This document shows positions 13,815 to 23,136 of a stretch of DNA of 46,300 nucleotides, piece after piece. Position numbers and translations under genes: made by a program. Location: assembly GCF_001641085.1 (NCBI RefSeq), contig NZ_LXIE01000014.1:1-46300 (forward strand), read 5' to 3'. Source of the DNA: Aequorivita soesokkakensis. Its GTDB lineage: Bacteria; Bacteroidota; Bacteroidia; Flavobacteriales; Flavobacteriaceae. The notes under the pieces were generated by a model, which made no database searches, was not told where the DNA came from, and worked only from the letters and a program-made list of their open reading frames with translations. The stretch's first letter is position 1; each line of letters starts with the position of its first letter.

Positions 13815-16628
13815 TTGATACTTAAACGTTTTTTATATAGTATTCTTTTATGCCTTTCAGTCCAGGCAGTGGCCCAGCATACCCTAACAATTGATGCCAC
13901 GCTGAATCCATCGCAAAGAACTATTTCAATAAAACAGCAGCTTACCTATAAAAACACTTCCGCAGATACATTAAAAGAAATATTCCTGTTTGATTGGGCA
14001 AACAGTTTTTCTTCCAAAGTCACGCCCTTGGGCAAACGTTTTGCCGAAAACTATGAGAGCGCATTTCATTTTGAAAAGGAATCGGAACGCGGAAAAACTA
14101 CCATTGAAAAAATTTATACCAATTCCACAGTTCCCCTGCAATGGCAAAGAGGCGCTGCTGTTGATATTCTGAAAGTTATCCCGGAAACACCTCTAAAACC
14201 CGGTGACAGTTATACTTTTAATTTGGAATATACCGTAAAAGTTTCTGACGATAGATTTACGCGTTATGGAGTTGATAAACAAAATGATTACAAGCTTCGC
14301 TACTGGTACATAGCTCCAGCGGTTTATGATGGTGAATGGCAGGTTTACAGCAATAAGAACACTGATGATTTATTCTTAACTCCTTCAGATTTTTCCATAA
14401 AACTTCACATTCCGAAGAATTATACCGTCACTTCCGATTTTGATGTGGTCTCAGAAAATATTTCAGAAAACATAAAAAACCTTGAGCTTTCAGGAAAGGA
14501 CAGAACAAATTCGGTATTGTATATTGAGAAAAATTCAAACTTTGAAACCATTGAAACCGATAAATTACAGATTGTCACCAATCTGCAAAACAGCAAGGTA
14601 AATCCGCCCGTGCAGGCTTTGATGATTGATCGGGTTGTTCACTTTTTAGATTCAAAACTGGGGGCATATCCACATAAAAAAATGGTCATTAGTGAAACCG
14701 ATTACCGTACAAATCCGGTTTATGGCCTCAACCAATTGCCAAGTTTTATAAGCCCTTTCCCAGATGGGTTTGAATATGACATGGAGCAACTAAAAACAAT
14801 AACCCGCAATTATATTGACAATACGCTGATTCTAAATTCACGCGAGGATTATTGGTTGCAGGATGCCTTGCAGATTTATTTGATGATGGAATATGTTGAT
14901 ATCTATTATCCAAAAATGAAGATAATAGGTAACCTGAGCAATTGGTGGATCATCCGTTGGGCACATGCGGCAGACTTGGAATTTAATGACCAATACCCAA
15001 TACTTTACCTCAATATGGCCCGCAACAATATTCATCAGCCACTTACCGCATCAAAGGATTCTTTGCTGAAATTCAATATGAATATCGCCAACGGATACTA
15101 CGGTGCAAGCGGGTTAAAATATTTGAATGATTATTTGGGCGATGATGTTTTGAAAAAAAGTATCAAGGAATTTTATTCCGAAAACAAAATGAAACCTATA
15201 AAATCTTCAGATTTTGAAGCGTTTCTTTCCGAAAAAACTGTGCTTCCAATCAATTGGTTTTTTGAGGATTTTGCGAACACCCGGACAACCATCGATTTCA
15301 AAATAAAGAAGGTAGAAAAGAAAGGAGATTCGCTGCAGGTTTTCATCATAAACAACAAAAAATCTGAGCTTCCCGTTTCGTTGTACGGTTTAAATAAAGA
15401 TGAAATTGTTTTTCAAACTTTTACAAAACCTTTTGACAGTATTACCACCATAACAATTCCTTCGGAAAATATTCGAAAGTTGGCGTTGAATTACGAAGGA
15501 AGAATCCCGGAATACAATCGCCGCAACAATTTTAAGGCAGTAAAAGGTTTGTTGAACAAGCCAATTCAATTCCGTCTTTTTCAAGATATTGAAGATCCAA
15601 ATTACACCCAGTTTTTCTTTATGCCAATTTTTGAATATAATCTTTACGATGGCATTTCAACGGGTTTGCGCCTTTACAACAAAACAGTGCTTCCAAAAGC
15701 GGTGCATTACAGTTTGGAGCCGCAATTCGGTTTTAGAAGTAAAACGCTTGTGGGAAGTGCTTCCATAAGTTATACCCAAACTATGGATCAAGGCGGATTA
15801 TATGCAATGCGGTATGGTTTTTCTGGAAATTATTACTCCTATGATCGTGGATTATTTTACAAACGTTTTACGCCATATATAACTTTCGCTTTCCGTAACG
15901 ACGATTTAAGGGACAACGAAAAACAGTTTATAAATCTTCGGAATGTAAACGTTTATCAGGACGAAGACCCTAATAATCCACAACAAGAGCCCAATTACAG
16001 TGTTTTTAATATTCAATATGTATATTCAAACCCAAACCTGATAAATTATTTTAGAGGAGTTGTGGATTATGAAATTTCTTCAAAGTTCAGCAAAGTTTCC
16101 ATGAATCTTGAATACCGAAAACTCTTTTTAAGCAACCGTCAACTTAATCTTCGCTTTTTTGCAGGAGCATTCCTTTTTAACGATACACGGGAGAATGAGG
16201 ATTTTTTCAGCTTTGCGTTGGATCGTCCAAATGATTATCTTTTTGATTACAATTATTATGGACGAAGTGAAGATACCGGACTTTTCAGCCAACAATTGAT
16301 TATTGCCGAAGGTGGTTTTAAATCACAACTGGAACCGGCCTATGCCAATAGCTGGATAGCTACGGTTAATGCCAGCACAAACATCTGGAAATGGATCTAT
16401 GCCTATGGCGATGCTGGACTTGTTCACAACAAAGCCCGAGGTACAAACGCAGTTTTTGACAGTGGCATCCGCTTAAGTTTGGTGGCCGATTATTTTGAGC
16501 TTTATTTTCCCGTTTATTCAAGTTTAGGTTTTGAGCCCAGCTTGCCACATTATGATGAAAAGGTGCGGTTTATAGTAACTTTGAGCCCAAAAACATTACT
16601 CGGATTGTTTACAAGAAGATGGTATTAA
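13815..16628 (+). CDS. M1-peptidase-like protein without zinc site, fused to an outer-membrane beta-barrel
   Basis: 937 residues with a signal peptide (MILKRFLYSILLCLSVQAVAQ). Residues from about 22 to 500 look like an M1 aminopeptidase: N-terminal beta-sandwich, then a helical domain. However, where M1 enzymes have HExxH the protein reads ITRNYIDNT (about residues 327-335), and the usual WLNEGFA becomes WLQDALQ. All zinc ligands are lost, so peptidase activity is not expected. The last 300 residues alternate aromatic and polar residues as in a surface-antigen type beta-barrel and end in an aromatic residue (RRWY), as outer-membrane barrels do. Start is TTG at 13815, which yields the signal peptide; no ATG does. 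Likely an outer membrane protein with a periplasmic or surface domain; role unknown. Confidence 0.75.
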   Translation: MILKRFLYSILLCLSVQAVAQHTLTIDATLNPSQRTISIKQQLTYKNTSADTLKEIFLFDWANSFSSKVTPLGKRFAENYESAFHFEKESERGKTTIEKIYTNSTVPLQWQRGAAVDILKVIPETPLKPGDSYTFNLEYTVKVSDDRFTRYGVDKQNDYKLRYWYIAPAVYDGEWQVYSNKNTDDLFLTPSDFSIKLHIPKNYTVTSDFDVVSENISENIKNLELSGKDRTNSVLYIEKNSNFETIETDKLQIVTNLQNSKVNPPVQALMIDRVVHFLDSKLGAYPHKKMVISETDYRTNPVYGLNQLPSFISPFPDGFEYDMEQLKTITRNYIDNTLILNSREDYWLQDALQIYLMMEYVDIYYPKMKIIGNLSNWWIIRWAHAADLEFNDQYPILYLNMARNNIHQPLTASKDSLLKFNMNIANGYYGASGLKYLNDYLGDDVLKKSIKEFYSENKMKPIKSSDFEAFLSEKTVLPINWFFEDFANTRTTIDFKIKKVEKKGDSLQVFIINNKKSELPVSLYGLNKDEIVFQTFTKPFDSITTITIPSENIRKLALNYEGRIPEYNRRNNFKAVKGLLNKPIQFRLFQDIEDPNYTQFFFMPIFEYNLYDGISTGLRLYNKTVLPKAVHYSLEPQFGFRSKTLVGSASISYTQTMDQGGLYAMRYGFSGNYYSYDRGLFYKRFTPYITFAFRNDDLRDNEKQFINLRNVNVYQDEDPNNPQQEPNYSVFNIQYVYSNPNLINYFRGVVDYEISSKFSKVSMNLEYRKLFLSNRQLNLRFFAGAFLFNDTRENEDFFSFALDRPNDYLFDYNYYGRSEDTGLFSQQLIIAEGGFKSQLEPAYANSWIATVNASTNIWKWIYAYGDAGLVHNKARGTNAVFDSGIRLSLVADYFELYFPVYSSLGFEPSLPHYDEKVRFIVTLSPKTLLGLFTRRWY

Positions 16629-19399: not shown

Positions 19400-19428
19400 A
19401 ATCCACACTTTAAAGATTTTGAAAATCA

Positions 19429-19450
19429 TAGGGGGATTTCCCCCTATTTT
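19429..19450 (+). terminator. Terminator after the E1 gene
   Basis: Stem TAGGGGG (19429-19435) with CCCCCTA (19440-19446), 4-nt loop ATTT, followed by a short T run. It separates E1 from the asnB leader. Confidence 0.75.
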
Positions 19451-19470
19451 CAATTTAATTCAAAAAATAA

Positions 19471-19502
19471 TTGCTTTTAGTCCTATAATTATTTTACATT
19501 AG
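19471..19502 (+). promoter_or_regulatory. Candidate promoter of the asnB leader transcript
   Basis: TTG at 19471-19473 and TACATTAG at 19495-19502 (21 nt apart). The -7 element differs from TAnnTTTG at one position. It would place the transcription start near 19508, about 25 nt before the leader-peptide ATG. Confidence 0.4.
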
Positions 19503-19532
19503 CAATTCAATTATAAAAACAAAAACAAGTTT

Positions 19533-19583
19533 ATGTTGCATTTCAGCCTAAATACAAACAATAATAATAACGTGCTGCCGTAA
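19533..19583 (+). CDS. Asn-rich leader peptide of the asnB attenuator
   Basis: A 16-residue open frame, MLHFSLNTNNNNNVLP, with six Asn codons (AAT, AAC, AAT, AAT, AAT, AAC) among the seven codons from 19551 to 19571. It ends in TAA 22 nt before a strong intrinsic terminator and about 120 nt before asnB, the gene for asparagine synthetase. A run of codons for the end product, followed by a terminator and an alternative hairpin, is the classic arrangement of ribosome-mediated transcription attenuation. If charged Asn-tRNA is scarce the ribosome would stall on the Asn codons and allow read-through. It is too short to be found by ordinary gene callers. There is no Shine-Dalgarno sequence, as is normal for this phylum. 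Confidence 0.8.
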   Translation: MLHFSLNTNNNNNVLP

Positions 19584-19584
19584 T

Positions 19585-19620
19585 AAAAACTTGTCGCGAT
19601 ATATGGCCTGTCAAGTTTTT
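19585..19620 (+). promoter_or_regulatory. Antiterminator hairpin of the asnB attenuator
   Basis: AAAAACTTG (19585-19593) pairs perfectly over 9 bp with CAAGTTTTT (19612-19620), using part of the 5' arm and loop of the terminator; the two hairpins exclude each other. The left arm starts right behind the leader-peptide stop codon, so a ribosome at the stop would cover it, while one stalled on the Asn codons would not. The left arm can also pair with ACAAGTTT (19525-19532) just before the leader ATG, giving a 1:2 pairing as in classical attenuators. Confidence 0.7.
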
Positions 19621-19640
19621 TCTTGACAGGCTTTTTTTTT
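19606..19640 (+). terminator. Attenuator terminator upstream of asnB
   Basis: Perfect 10-bp stem GCCTGTCAAG (19606-19615) with CTTGACAGGC (19622-19631), loop of six T, followed by nine T. A very strong intrinsic terminator placed between the Asn leader peptide and asnB. Confidence 0.9.
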
Positions 19641-19641
19641 A

Positions 19642-19672
19642 CATCCCCCTTGCCCCCTTCAAAGGGGGAATG
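19642..19672. repeat. C-rich/G-rich palindromic element, REP-like
   Basis: CATCCCCC, then CCCCCTT (19653-19659) and AAGGGGG (19662-19668) forming a hairpin, then AATG. It lies between the attenuator terminator and the asnB ATG. Elements with CCCCCTT...AAGGGGG are known to me as a common intergenic repeat in flavobacterial genomes; only one full copy is in this window. Confidence 0.45.
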
Positions 19673-19706
19673 TCAATACTAACTAATCAATTAAAAAATA
19701 GAAATT

Positions 19707-21374
19707 ATGTGTGGAATTGTATGTGCATTCAAATTAAAAGAGCCCGCAGAGGCCTTAAGACTTCAGGTATTGTCAATGGCAAAATGTATCCGTCACCGCG
19801 GGCCGGACTGGAGCGGAATTTTCAGTAACGACAAAGCAATTATGGCGCACGAACGCCTCGCCATTGTAGATCCCACTTCTGGCAAGCAACCGCTTTTCAG
19901 CAGTGATGGCAACCTCGTTTTAGCAGCCAATGGCGAAATTTATAACCATATGGCTCTTCGGAAACAATTCAAGGATTATGAATTCCAGACCAAAAGCGAC
20001 TGCGAGGTAATCCTTCCGTTATATAAAGAAAAAGGTGCCAGCTTCCTCGATGAAATGAACGGCATCTTCGGCTTTGCGCTTTATGATATTGAAAACGACA
20101 ACTATTTTATCGCCCGCGACCATATGGGCATTATTCCACTTTATTATGGTTGGGACCAAAACGGAACCTTTTACGTAGCTTCCGAATTAAAAGCTTTGGA
20201 AGGCGTTTGCACAAAAATAGAACTCTTCCCGCCCGGTCATTATCTGGACAGCCGCGAAGGCGAACTGAAACGCTGGTACTCCCGCGATTGGATGGAATAT
20301 GAAAACGTAAAGGAAAACGAAACAAAAATTGCCGAACTCCGCAAAGCCTTGGAAGCAGCAGTACACCGTCAATTGATGAGCGATGTGCCATATGGAGTTT
20401 TACTTTCCGGCGGCCTGGACAGCAGCATCACTTCCGCCATCGCAAAAAAATATGCCGAAAAACGTATTGAAAGCGAAGACACCGAAGGCGCTTGGTATCC
20501 ACAGCTTCACAGTTTCGCTATCGGACTTGAAGGCAGCCCCGATCTTGCAGCTGCACAAAAAGTGGCAGATCATTTAAAGACCGTTCACCACGAAATAAAA
20601 TTCACAATTCAGGAAGGAATCGATGCCATCCGCGATGTGATTTATCACTTGGAAACCTACGATATTACCACCATCCGTGCCAGTACACCTATGTATTTAA
20701 TGGCCCGCGCCATTAAGGCGATGGGTATAAAAATGGTACTAAGCGGTGAAGGAGCTGACGAAATTTTTGGCGGCTACCTCTATTTCCACAAAGCCCCCAA
20801 TGCAGAGGAATTCCACAAGGAAAACGTGCGCAAGTTGGACAAACTACATATGTATGATTGCCTCCGCGCCAACAAATCCCTAGCCTCTTGGGGAATTGAA
20901 GGCCGTGTACCCTTTCTCGATAAGGAATTTATGGACGTCGCTATGCGCATAAACCCGCAGGACAAAATGATAAACGGCGAACGCATGGAAAAGTGGGTAT
21001 TGCGAAAAGCCTTTGAAGACATGCTCCCCGAAAGCGTTGCCTGGCGACAAAAGGAACAATTTAGCGATGGTGTGGGCTACAGTTGGATAGACACCCTAAA
21101 GGAAATGGTAAACGAAAAAGTAACCGACGAACAGTTGGCAAACGCCAAATACAAATTCCCCCTCCAAACCCCCACCAGCAAGGAAGAGTTTTACTACCGA
21201 AGCATTTTCGCAGAACATTTCCCCAGCGACACCGCTGCCCTAAGCGTGCCCAGTGTACCCTCGGTGGCATGCAGCAGCCCCATTGCTTTGGAGTGGGATG
21301 CCAGCTTTAAGAATATGAACGACCCAAGCGGCAGGGCGGTAAAAAATGTCCATACAGATGCTTATGCGAAGTAG
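19707..21374 (+). CDS. asnB: Glutamine-hydrolysing asparagine synthetase B
   Basis: 555 residues, matching AsnB length. Class II glutamine amidotransferase domain with catalytic Cys2 (MCGIVCAF), RHRGPDWSG and ANGEIYNH; then the ATP-pyrophosphatase synthetase domain with LSGGLDSS, LSGEGADEIFGGYLYFHKAP and the EGRVPFLDKEF segment. It makes asparagine from aspartate, glutamine and ATP. The initiator Met must be removed to expose Cys2. Preceded by the Asn leader peptide, antiterminator and terminator, so expression is predicted to rise when Asn-tRNA charging is low. Followed by a good terminator (21488-21522), so it is a single-gene unit. Codon use is somewhat GC-richer than that of its neighbours. 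Confidence 0.96.
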   Translation: MCGIVCAFKLKEPAEALRLQVLSMAKCIRHRGPDWSGIFSNDKAIMAHERLAIVDPTSGKQPLFSSDGNLVLAANGEIYNHMALRKQFKDYEFQTKSDCEVILPLYKEKGASFLDEMNGIFGFALYDIENDNYFIARDHMGIIPLYYGWDQNGTFYVASELKALEGVCTKIELFPPGHYLDSREGELKRWYSRDWMEYENVKENETKIAELRKALEAAVHRQLMSDVPYGVLLSGGLDSSITSAIAKKYAEKRIESEDTEGAWYPQLHSFAIGLEGSPDLAAAQKVADHLKTVHHEIKFTIQEGIDAIRDVIYHLETYDITTIRASTPMYLMARAIKAMGIKMVLSGEGADEIFGGYLYFHKAPNAEEFHKENVRKLDKLHMYDCLRANKSLASWGIEGRVPFLDKEFMDVAMRINPQDKMINGERMEKWVLRKAFEDMLPESVAWRQKEQFSDGVGYSWIDTLKEMVNEKVTDEQLANAKYKFPLQTPTSKEEFYYRSIFAEHFPSDTAALSVPSVPSVACSSPIALEWDASFKNMNDPSGRAVKNVHTDAYAK

Positions 21375-21487: not shown

Positions 21488-21522
21488 AAACGCCAGTGAT
21501 TTTGTTTCACTGGCGTTTTTTT
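21488..21522 (+). terminator. Terminator after asnB
   Basis: Stem AAACGCCAGTG (21488-21498) with CACTGGCGTTT (21508-21518), followed by a T run to 21522. About 110 nt after the asnB stop. Confidence 0.85.
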
Positions 21523-21681: not shown

Positions 21682-23136
21682 ATGAAGAGATTTTTATTTA
21701 TTACAATTTTATTATGCCAAAGTTTAATCATAGCGCAAAACGAATCTGATTTTAAAATATATGAAAGTCCAGCTTATAACGACGAAGTAAAAACTGATAG
21801 CGTAAGAGCTATATACACTTCTGATTTAGGTAATACTGGAATTGTGAGAAATGACGAAAAACGAATTGTATTTGATTTATTTAACGAGAAATTATCAAAG
21901 ATTCACACAAAGATTATTGAGACAGACCGTAAAGAAACTTATATTGGAGATATTTTTTTCAATAATCAAATTAATGTTTTTACAGAGACGTTTCCAGATA
22001 AAGACGTAAAAGTACTTTCCTGTTATGTTTATAATTTAATTGACAAAACAGATAGAAAAATTGAGTTATCATCAACTACAATTGATAAAAGGTTAAGTCT
22101 TTTTTCTAATGAAAAAGGTGCGGAATTTTCAATTTCACCAAATATGAACTATTTCTCAATAACCAATTATACCATTCACAGAGATGAGATTTTTTATCAT
22201 GTTAGTGTATTCGATTCCAAAACTTATAAATTGATTTATGACCAACAAATTACCCGGAATGAAAACAAATTTTATTCACTTTCAGAAATTAAAATTGATA
22301 ACGAAAAAAACGTATTCGTATTAAGCGAATCCTTTTATGATGAGGAATCTCCTAAACTAAAAAGTGAAGAAAATAGACATTTTATTTTAGAAAAATTTAA
22401 TGGGAATAATTATTCAAAATTGAATTTAGATTTGGAAGGTAAGCACATTAAATCCTTAAAAACTGTCGTGAATGAAAATGATTATAATGTTTACGGTTTT
22501 TATTCTGATTCGGGTTTGAATGCAATTAAAGGTGTTTGTAATATTTTAGTTGACATGAATAAATTTGAAATAATTGAGAAAAACTTGCAAGATTTGCCAG
22601 CACAAGTTTATGAAGATTTGTTTGGTAATGACAAAGTAGATAAGAAAAAAGATGAAGAGTTGTTTAATTTCAAAATAGATTATATTCTAAATGACAGTCA
22701 AGACAATGTTTATCTGTTGGCTGAACAATTTTACATAACTTATAATAATAATCAAAAGGTTGAGCATTATGATGATATTTTAATAATCAAATTCAACTCC
22801 AATGGCAATTTAGATTGGGGAAGAAGTATTTTTAAAAAGGATTATAGAACTTCCTATAAAGCCTTTCTCAAAAATGATGATTTGCACATCATTTTAAATT
22901 CAGGAAAAGAGCTAAAAGAACTCGAAGACGGCAGAACCAAAACATCTCAAGGATTTTTTGAATCATCCGCTTTATATGATTTTGTTTATAATAGTTCTGG
23001 AAATAATTCAATTCACAAACTTCAAAACAACAAAAAGAACACTTATTATTTGCCAAAATTTGGTAATTATATAAATGGTAAATTTATTATGATAAGTGAT
23101 TCACGGAATGAACGACAGTTTATGTCATTGGAGTAA
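21682..23136 (+). CDS. Secreted protein of unknown function in an inverted-repeat-bounded unit
   Basis: 484 residues, very AT-rich compared with asnB. The first 19 residues are a signal peptide (MKRFLFITILLCQSLIIAQ). The rest has repeating short beta-strand segments with patterns such as NNQINVF, ENDYNVYGFY and DSQDNVYLLAEQF, as in beta-propeller-like or secreted repeat proteins; no catalytic motif is recognised. There is no membrane helix after the signal. The gene is tightly framed: a 17-bp inverted repeat ends 12 nt before the ATG, and its partner starts one base after the stop codon, with a perfect palindrome outside the left copy. Composition and boundaries suggest a transferred cassette-like unit; this is inference. 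Confidence 0.6.
   Translation: MKRFLFITILLCQSLIIAQNESDFKIYESPAYNDEVKTDSVRAIYTSDLGNTGIVRNDEKRIVFDLFNEKLSKIHTKIIETDRKETYIGDIFFNNQINVFTETFPDKDVKVLSCYVYNLIDKTDRKIELSSTTIDKRLSLFSNEKGAEFSISPNMNYFSITNYTIHRDEIFYHVSVFDSKTYKLIYDQQITRNENKFYSLSEIKIDNEKNVFVLSESFYDEESPKLKSEENRHFILEKFNGNNYSKLNLDLEGKHIKSLKTVVNENDYNVYGFYSDSGLNAIKGVCNILVDMNKFEIIEKNLQDLPAQVYEDLFGNDKVDKKKDEELFNFKIDYILNDSQDNVYLLAEQFYITYNNNQKVEHYDDILIIKFNSNGNLDWGRSIFKKDYRTSYKAFLKNDDLHIILNSGKELKELEDGRTKTSQGFFESSALYDFVYNSSGNNSIHKLQNNKKNTYYLPKFGNYINGKFIMISDSRNERQFMSLE

Follow-up and report, generated by a model that had tools for sequence, protein, structure and literature searches.

The analyzed DNA, a 46.3-kb stretch from Aequorivita soesokkakensis that is referred to here as the window, carries asnB, which encodes a glutamine-hydrolysing asparagine synthase B of 555 amino acids. 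A preliminary description of the sequence had stated that this gene makes asparagine, in agreement with its match to NF006949 (931.9 bits, cut-off 499); the nearest named AsnB, from Aequorivita aurantiaca, is 96% identical. A terminator-like hairpin follows the gene, so asnB is probably a single-gene unit. Immediately past the upstream gene there is a terminator-like 8-bp hairpin (19428-19447) with a poor T tract. Two frames beside asnB are less readily classified: that at 21682-23136 (484 amino acids) has no Pfam or NCBIfam match, and that at 13815-16628 (937 amino acids) has only a weak match to Peptidase_M1. The features of the asnB locus are:

19471-19502, + strand, probable sigma-A-type promoter (TTG at 19471-19473; -7 box TACATTAG at 19495-19502)
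19525-19532, + strand, arm 1 (protector), pairing with 19587-19594 over 8 bp
19533-19583, + strand, leader peptide frame MLHFSLNTNNNNNVLP, 16 codons, with ATG at 19533 and the TAA stop codon at 19581-19583
19585-19593, + strand, arm 2, the 5′ side of the antiterminator (inverted-repeat program)
19612-19620, + strand, the part of arm 3 that pairs with arm 2, overlapping the loop and upper stem of the terminator
19606-19631, + strand, terminator hairpin, 19606-19615 with 19622-19631, 10 bp and a 6-nt loop (inverted-repeat program and covariation)
19632-19640, + strand, T9 tract of the terminator (from the sequence)
19707-21374, + strand, asnB, glutamine-hydrolysing asparagine synthase B, the presumed target of the leader (NF006949, TIGR01536)
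21488-21518, + strand, terminator-like hairpin downstream of asnB (consensus scan only)

The 16-codon frame, its six Asn codons within seven, and the coordinates of every arm and of the terminator had all been given in the preliminary description and proved exact, base for base. The six Asn residues of MLHFSLNTNNNNNVLP lie within codons 7-13, the control codons being codon 7 and codons 9-13. The 9-bp antiterminator (19585-19593 with 19612-19620) was found by program as inverted repeats, and arm 1 is included in a longer repeat, 19525-19537 with 19582-19594, in which 13 nt are 85% complementary. The 131-nt leader folds with -33.2 kcal/mol (z -4.6), a stability equalled in none of 200 shuffles. 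None of 5000 dinucleotide shuffles of 19400-19706 produced an ATG-started frame, 8-30 codons long, with at least five Asn in seven codons, and within the 46.3-kb window (both strands; ATG, GTG or TTG starts) six Asn in seven codons is unique to the leader frame, which is counted a second time from its own internal TTG. The Rfam scan of the window gave no family at gathering score; the weak match that scored best over the leader, CyaR (E 0.00033, 31.8 bits with 47 needed), was taken as a chance hit.

In Flavobacterium psychrophilum, a TAnnTTTG consensus has been reported at positions -12 to -5, and genes of the host group have been described as devoid of Shine-Dalgarno sequences (PMC9723704). 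By the spacing of the -7 box in that paper, transcription of the asnB leader would start near 19507. Of 22 genus leaders that were compared, 21 have the box as TAnnTTAG at the corresponding position, and the exception, L132, has TAnnTTCG. Between the terminator and asnB lies a palindromic stretch, CATCCCCCTTGCCCCCTTCAAAGGGGGAATGT (19641-19675), of which the genome contains two further partial copies (on contigs C23 and C12). Similar inserts occupy the same place in the genus members L114, L117, L128, L130 and L131 and are absent from others; the stretch is probably a small mobile repeat.

The leader is located upstream of asnB in all 23 Aequorivita-group genomes with an asnB match. An asnB match is missing from the other five of the 28 genus genomes, and four of these five also lack a match to the RNA core at E 0.001. 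The fifth, G171, has three weak core matches, two of them nearly co-located on opposite strands, as would be expected of a symmetric terminator. Three of the asnB-less genomes (G152, G159 and G171) are also without a Bacteroid-trp match, which G164 has; the three may have in common a loss of amino-acid synthesis or of its control. Asparaginyl-tRNA synthetase was found in all nine genus genomes tested.

For a wider search, a covariance model (R1) was built from the last three codons, the stop codon, arm 2 and the terminator, with the Asn run not included. Among 397 sampled genomes of the family, at least 40 carry the leader, each with an Asn-rich frame before asnB; this number is a lower bound, with still weaker matches (L198 and L199 in the window's own genome among them) lying outside the count. 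In all 38 genomes with an R1 E-value no higher than 7.2e-9, the match comes with an Asn-rich frame followed by asnB, as it does in two further genomes at E 1.1e-6 and 1.5e-6. A training stretch occurs letter for letter in 16 of the 40 leader-bearing genomes, and the other 24 contain none. Inspection of 20 weaker R1 places identified seven true leaders and 13 places with no asnB within the 1.7 kb retrieved. The strong matches to the RNA core all sit before asnB. Across 296 genomes of the order, other family members included, the only match at E 1e-6 was the window's own genome, and a wide spread through the order was rejected. Comparison of the upstream regions of 132 asnB loci, which include some duplicates between collections, revealed the leader in 47, and in 14 of the 80 named loci among them; three loci with short upstream DNA (L041, 7 nt; L056, 174 nt; L067, 337 nt) are counted as leaderless. 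Six leaderless loci (L027, L031, L032, L072, L073 and L076) contain a frame with three Asn in seven codons, and in none of these is it followed by the CTTG arm. Of the 13 loci labelled Flavobacterium, only one, from a MAG (L010), has the Asn leader.

Drift within the leader was followed in 67 distinct sequences, 65 of them distinct among 82 that were found by pattern, together with L142 and L147, which have a G before CTTG. Since the pattern demanded at least three Asn in seven codons and CTTG after the stop codon, both features are selected in the 65 leaders, and the R1 search is the cleaner test. The preliminary description had suggested checking in relatives whether the Asn run, the position of the stop and the exclusive hairpins are kept while the sequence drifts, and all three are retained. 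The peptide varies from 11 to 19 codons and from three to 10 Asn codons, written as 308 AAU and 121 AAC, and 68 non-Asn codons lie between the first and last Asn (65 leaders). The start codon is ATG in 66 leaders and GTG in one. The stop codon is TAA in 46, TAG in 21 and TGA in none; the absence of TGA may be due to ancestry or to a need for a particular release factor.

The spacings are far more uniform. In 63 of the 67 leaders, 2 nt separate the stop codon from the 8-nt arm 2 core, and in 55 the last Asn codon lies 14 nt from arm 2. Seven others have a single Asn beyond the run, in a GNP or GNT ending; there the last Asn is at 8 nt, and the run itself stops 14 nt away. Measured from the end of the Asn run, the gap is thus 14 nt in 62 of 67, the remaining five having 20, 20, 16, 13 and 11 nt. 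In L009 and L170, one codon fewer is accompanied by 3 nt more, and the 14-nt gap is kept. Shared ancestry may account for part of this constant spacing.

Pairing was assessed in alignment A1, which contains 39 distinct sequences after eight of the 47 had been left out (four from the same genome twice and four identical stretches). For the terminator, 99.7% of the cells are paired, five of the 10 pairs are changed on both sides (mean in shuffles, 2.8), and 36 cells carry such changes (10.8 in shuffles). The antiterminator is paired in 99.0% of the cells, mostly through invariance. Only one of its eight pairs is changed on both sides, a level reached by 396 of 500 shuffles; the number of cells with both-side changes (5 versus 1.3; 2 of 500 shuffles) and the covariation score (0 of 500) are above the shuffles. 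The sequence support for the antiterminator is thus mainly its conservation, with all eight pairs present in 64 of the 67 leaders. In one column of arm 3, only A or G occurs, either of which pairs with the U of arm 2, and the partner in arm 4 tracks it as U or C. This restriction, together with the change of the partner, indicates that arm 3 must serve two partners.

The effect of a translating ribosome was estimated by a masking calculation, in which the RNA under and behind the ribosome is removed, no pairing across the ribosome is allowed, and the leading edge is assumed to lie 15 nt past the first P-site base. The preliminary description had proposed that a ribosome at the stop codon hides the antiterminator arm and one stalled on Asn codons frees it. 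In the calculation, the predicted antiterminator probability with the ribosome at the stop codon is at most 0.1 in 67 of 67 leaders, and it stays at or above 0.7 through the whole Asn run in 61 of 67; the six leaders that fall below 0.7 are L122, L132, L133, L142, L157 and L175. The third arm of that description, 19525-19532, is well supported within the genus, where pairing between arms 1 and 2 is better than 95% of shuffles in 20 of 23 leaders. Overall, this level is reached in only 34 of the 67 leaders, so the protector arm does not seem essential to the design. When no ribosome is present, the pairing of arms 1 and 2 is favored in 20 of the 67 leaders, the antiterminator in 36 and neither in 11; the corresponding numbers for the 23 leaders of the genus are 13, four and six. 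The untranslated leader is therefore predicted to be off in this species and in much of the genus and on in many relatives.

We consider it highly likely that the leader senses charged tRNA-Asn and governs asnB through ribosome-mediated transcription attenuation. At the level of sequence, its parts, the mutual exclusivity of the hairpins, their conservation and spacing, and the link to asnB are established; translation of the frame, stalling, the kinetics and the size of the effect are what we infer. RNA polymerase would start ∼25 nt upstream of the leader start codon, and a ribosome would trail it. With ample Asn-tRNA, the ribosome would reach the stop codon with its leading edge over arm 2 (19585-19593), arm 3 would then pair with arm 4, and transcription would stop at the T tract. 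With scarce Asn-tRNA, it would stall within the run, whose final Asn codon is 14 nt away from the arm 2 core. While an Asn codon occupies the A site, the leading edge of the ribosome would be just short of arm 2, which would be covered when the ribosome is at the stop codon. Arm 2, left free by the stalled ribosome, would pair with arm 3 ahead of the synthesis of arm 4, and transcription would continue into asnB. If this leader is left untranslated, arm 1 is predicted to capture arm 2, and the gene would be off. Asparagine synthesis is thus very probably switched on when charged Asn tRNA is short, and asparagine itself would presumably act as the regulating metabolite. In the 65 leaders compared, the mean energy of the antiterminator is -7.9 kcal/mol versus -19.5 kcal/mol for the terminator side, and it overlaps only the upper four of the terminator's 10 pairs. 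Therefore, the switch would be kinetic, the antiterminator forming first and blocking the terminator by timing and sterics; this is the least secure step of the mechanism.

The alternative that fares best attributes stalling to generally slow or blocked translation, caused by nascent poly-Asn, drugs or cold, rather than to a lack of charged tRNA-Asn. Long Asn runs may themselves be slow, residues other than Asn lie near the run in several leaders, and the 36 leaders in which the ribosome-free RNA favors the antiterminator would have asnB switched on by a block of initiation. However, an Asn run is coupled to an Asn-making gene in all 40 family genomes, and the drift of run length and neighboring residues makes a specific arrest peptide unlikely; we regard this explanation as improbable. 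Still less credible is a leader bound by a protein or ligand (a T-box, riboswitch or RNA-binding repressor), in which the frame would be incidental. The segment CTTGTCGCGATATA between arms 2 and 3 is conserved in the genus beyond what pairing needs, which would suit such a leader, but in some relatives it is replaced by CTTGTACCCTATA with frame, spacing and hairpins unchanged, and there is no Rfam match at gathering score. That the hairpin is the ordinary terminator of the upstream gene next to a chance (AAT)n stretch, as the AT-rich surroundings and a run length that varies like a short repeat might suggest, can be practically dismissed, given the absence of such a frame from the shuffles, the mixing of AAU and AAC, the 14-nt and 2-nt spacings, the upstream gene's own terminator-like hairpin (albeit with its poor T tract), and the position of all strong core matches before asnB; once the relatives are taken into account, conservation already refutes it.

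As a putative charged-tRNA sensor, the asnB leader can be compared with the trp, his, leu, thr and phe attenuators of enterobacteria, in which control codons precede alternative terminator and antiterminator hairpins and the position of the ribosome decides between them. The asnB leader shares the control codons, the alternative hairpins and, as predicted, the ribosome-position logic. It differs in that its codons are for Asn, arm 1 precedes the start codon, and arm 2 comes just after the stop codon, so that arm 2 would be exposed or hidden directly by the ribosome; in addition, a convincing arm 1 is missing in many relatives. Firmicutes have asn genes with T-box leaders, which also sense tRNA charging through transcription attenuation, but do so by direct tRNA binding and have no leader peptide. 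T-box models gave no gathering-score match in the window and none over the leader among the matches listed up to E 5.

The genome also contains a Bacteroid-trp RNA (RF01692; G000:C12:166889-167005, 52.4 bits, cut-off 49) with the peptide MNTFTQNTWWWKNLRQNS. It is similar to the asnB leader in that a terminator hairpin comes after a short peptide in which the product amino acid is repeated (WWW), and differs in coding for Trp instead of Asn and in its sequence and arms. Like the T-box models, RF01692 had no gathering-score match in the window and, among the listed matches up to E 5, none over the asnB leader. Bacteroid-trp was listed by Weinberg and others in 2010 (PMC2864571) and has been likened to the E. 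coli trp leader (PMC6414381), and short frames reminiscent of leader peptides have been noted in B. thetaiotaomicron (PMC7366714). In Flavobacterium psychrophilum, which belongs to the same family (Flavobacteriaceae), strong clues were reported for leader-peptide attenuation at amino-acid operons, and pheA and hisG are among the genes named as having structured leaders; asnB is absent from the main text of that paper (PMC9723704). No earlier description of an Asn leader peptide was found in the leader-peptide and attenuation literature searched, a scope that lies outside supplementary tables and the 2010 attenuator survey of Lopatovskaya, Seliverstov and Lyubetsky. The mechanism is of the known trp/his type; the Asn specificity and the protector-less form look new, and with this leader asparagine would join the amino acids that are sensed through leader peptides.

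The history of the trait was examined in an AsnB tree (FastTree, 148 proteins, 67 with the leader and 81 without), which is a gene tree, not a species tree, with a modest branch support of 74; the trait is explained by one change, whereas shuffling gave a mean of 49. This is consistent with a single origin and no subsequent loss within the proteins on the tree. A further 80 asnB upstream regions from outside this clade (60 from the family and 20 from the class) yielded 79 with a readable start (60 and 19), L202 being left out. In 15 of these 79, some frame has three or four Asn in seven codons, and a terminator-like hairpin before asnB accompanies it in L211 only.

We think it likely, with less assurance than for attenuation as such, that this is an apparently undescribed Asn-specific attenuator with one origin in an Aequorivita-centred clade, in which the 14-nt gap serves as a ruler that sets the stalled edge while the length of the run is free to vary, about half of the leaders are two-state, with no strong protector arm, and the leader of the distant genome G817 suggests repeated invention. 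If so, loss of translation would turn asnB on in the two-state leaders and off in this species. The clade would offer a natural series, with or without a protector arm and with three to 10 control codons, that is suited to testing the parts of an attenuator.

The G817 leader (L211, G817:C205), from a distant member of the Bacteroidia, encodes an Asn peptide, MKTQTHNNNRFFALASR, ∼106-160 bases upstream of asnB. It has its own terminator and antiterminator, of other sequence, and arm 2 lies within the end of the frame. A narrow pattern for such a leader matched only G817 among 395 class genomes, and G750, the sole other asnB-bearing genome of its family, is without one. In the masking calculation for this single genome, the antiterminator has a predicted probability of 1.0 on the Asn codons and 0 at the stop codon. 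The N-terminus of MKTQTHNNNRFFALASR is like that of Trp leader peptides (MKT/MNT.T).
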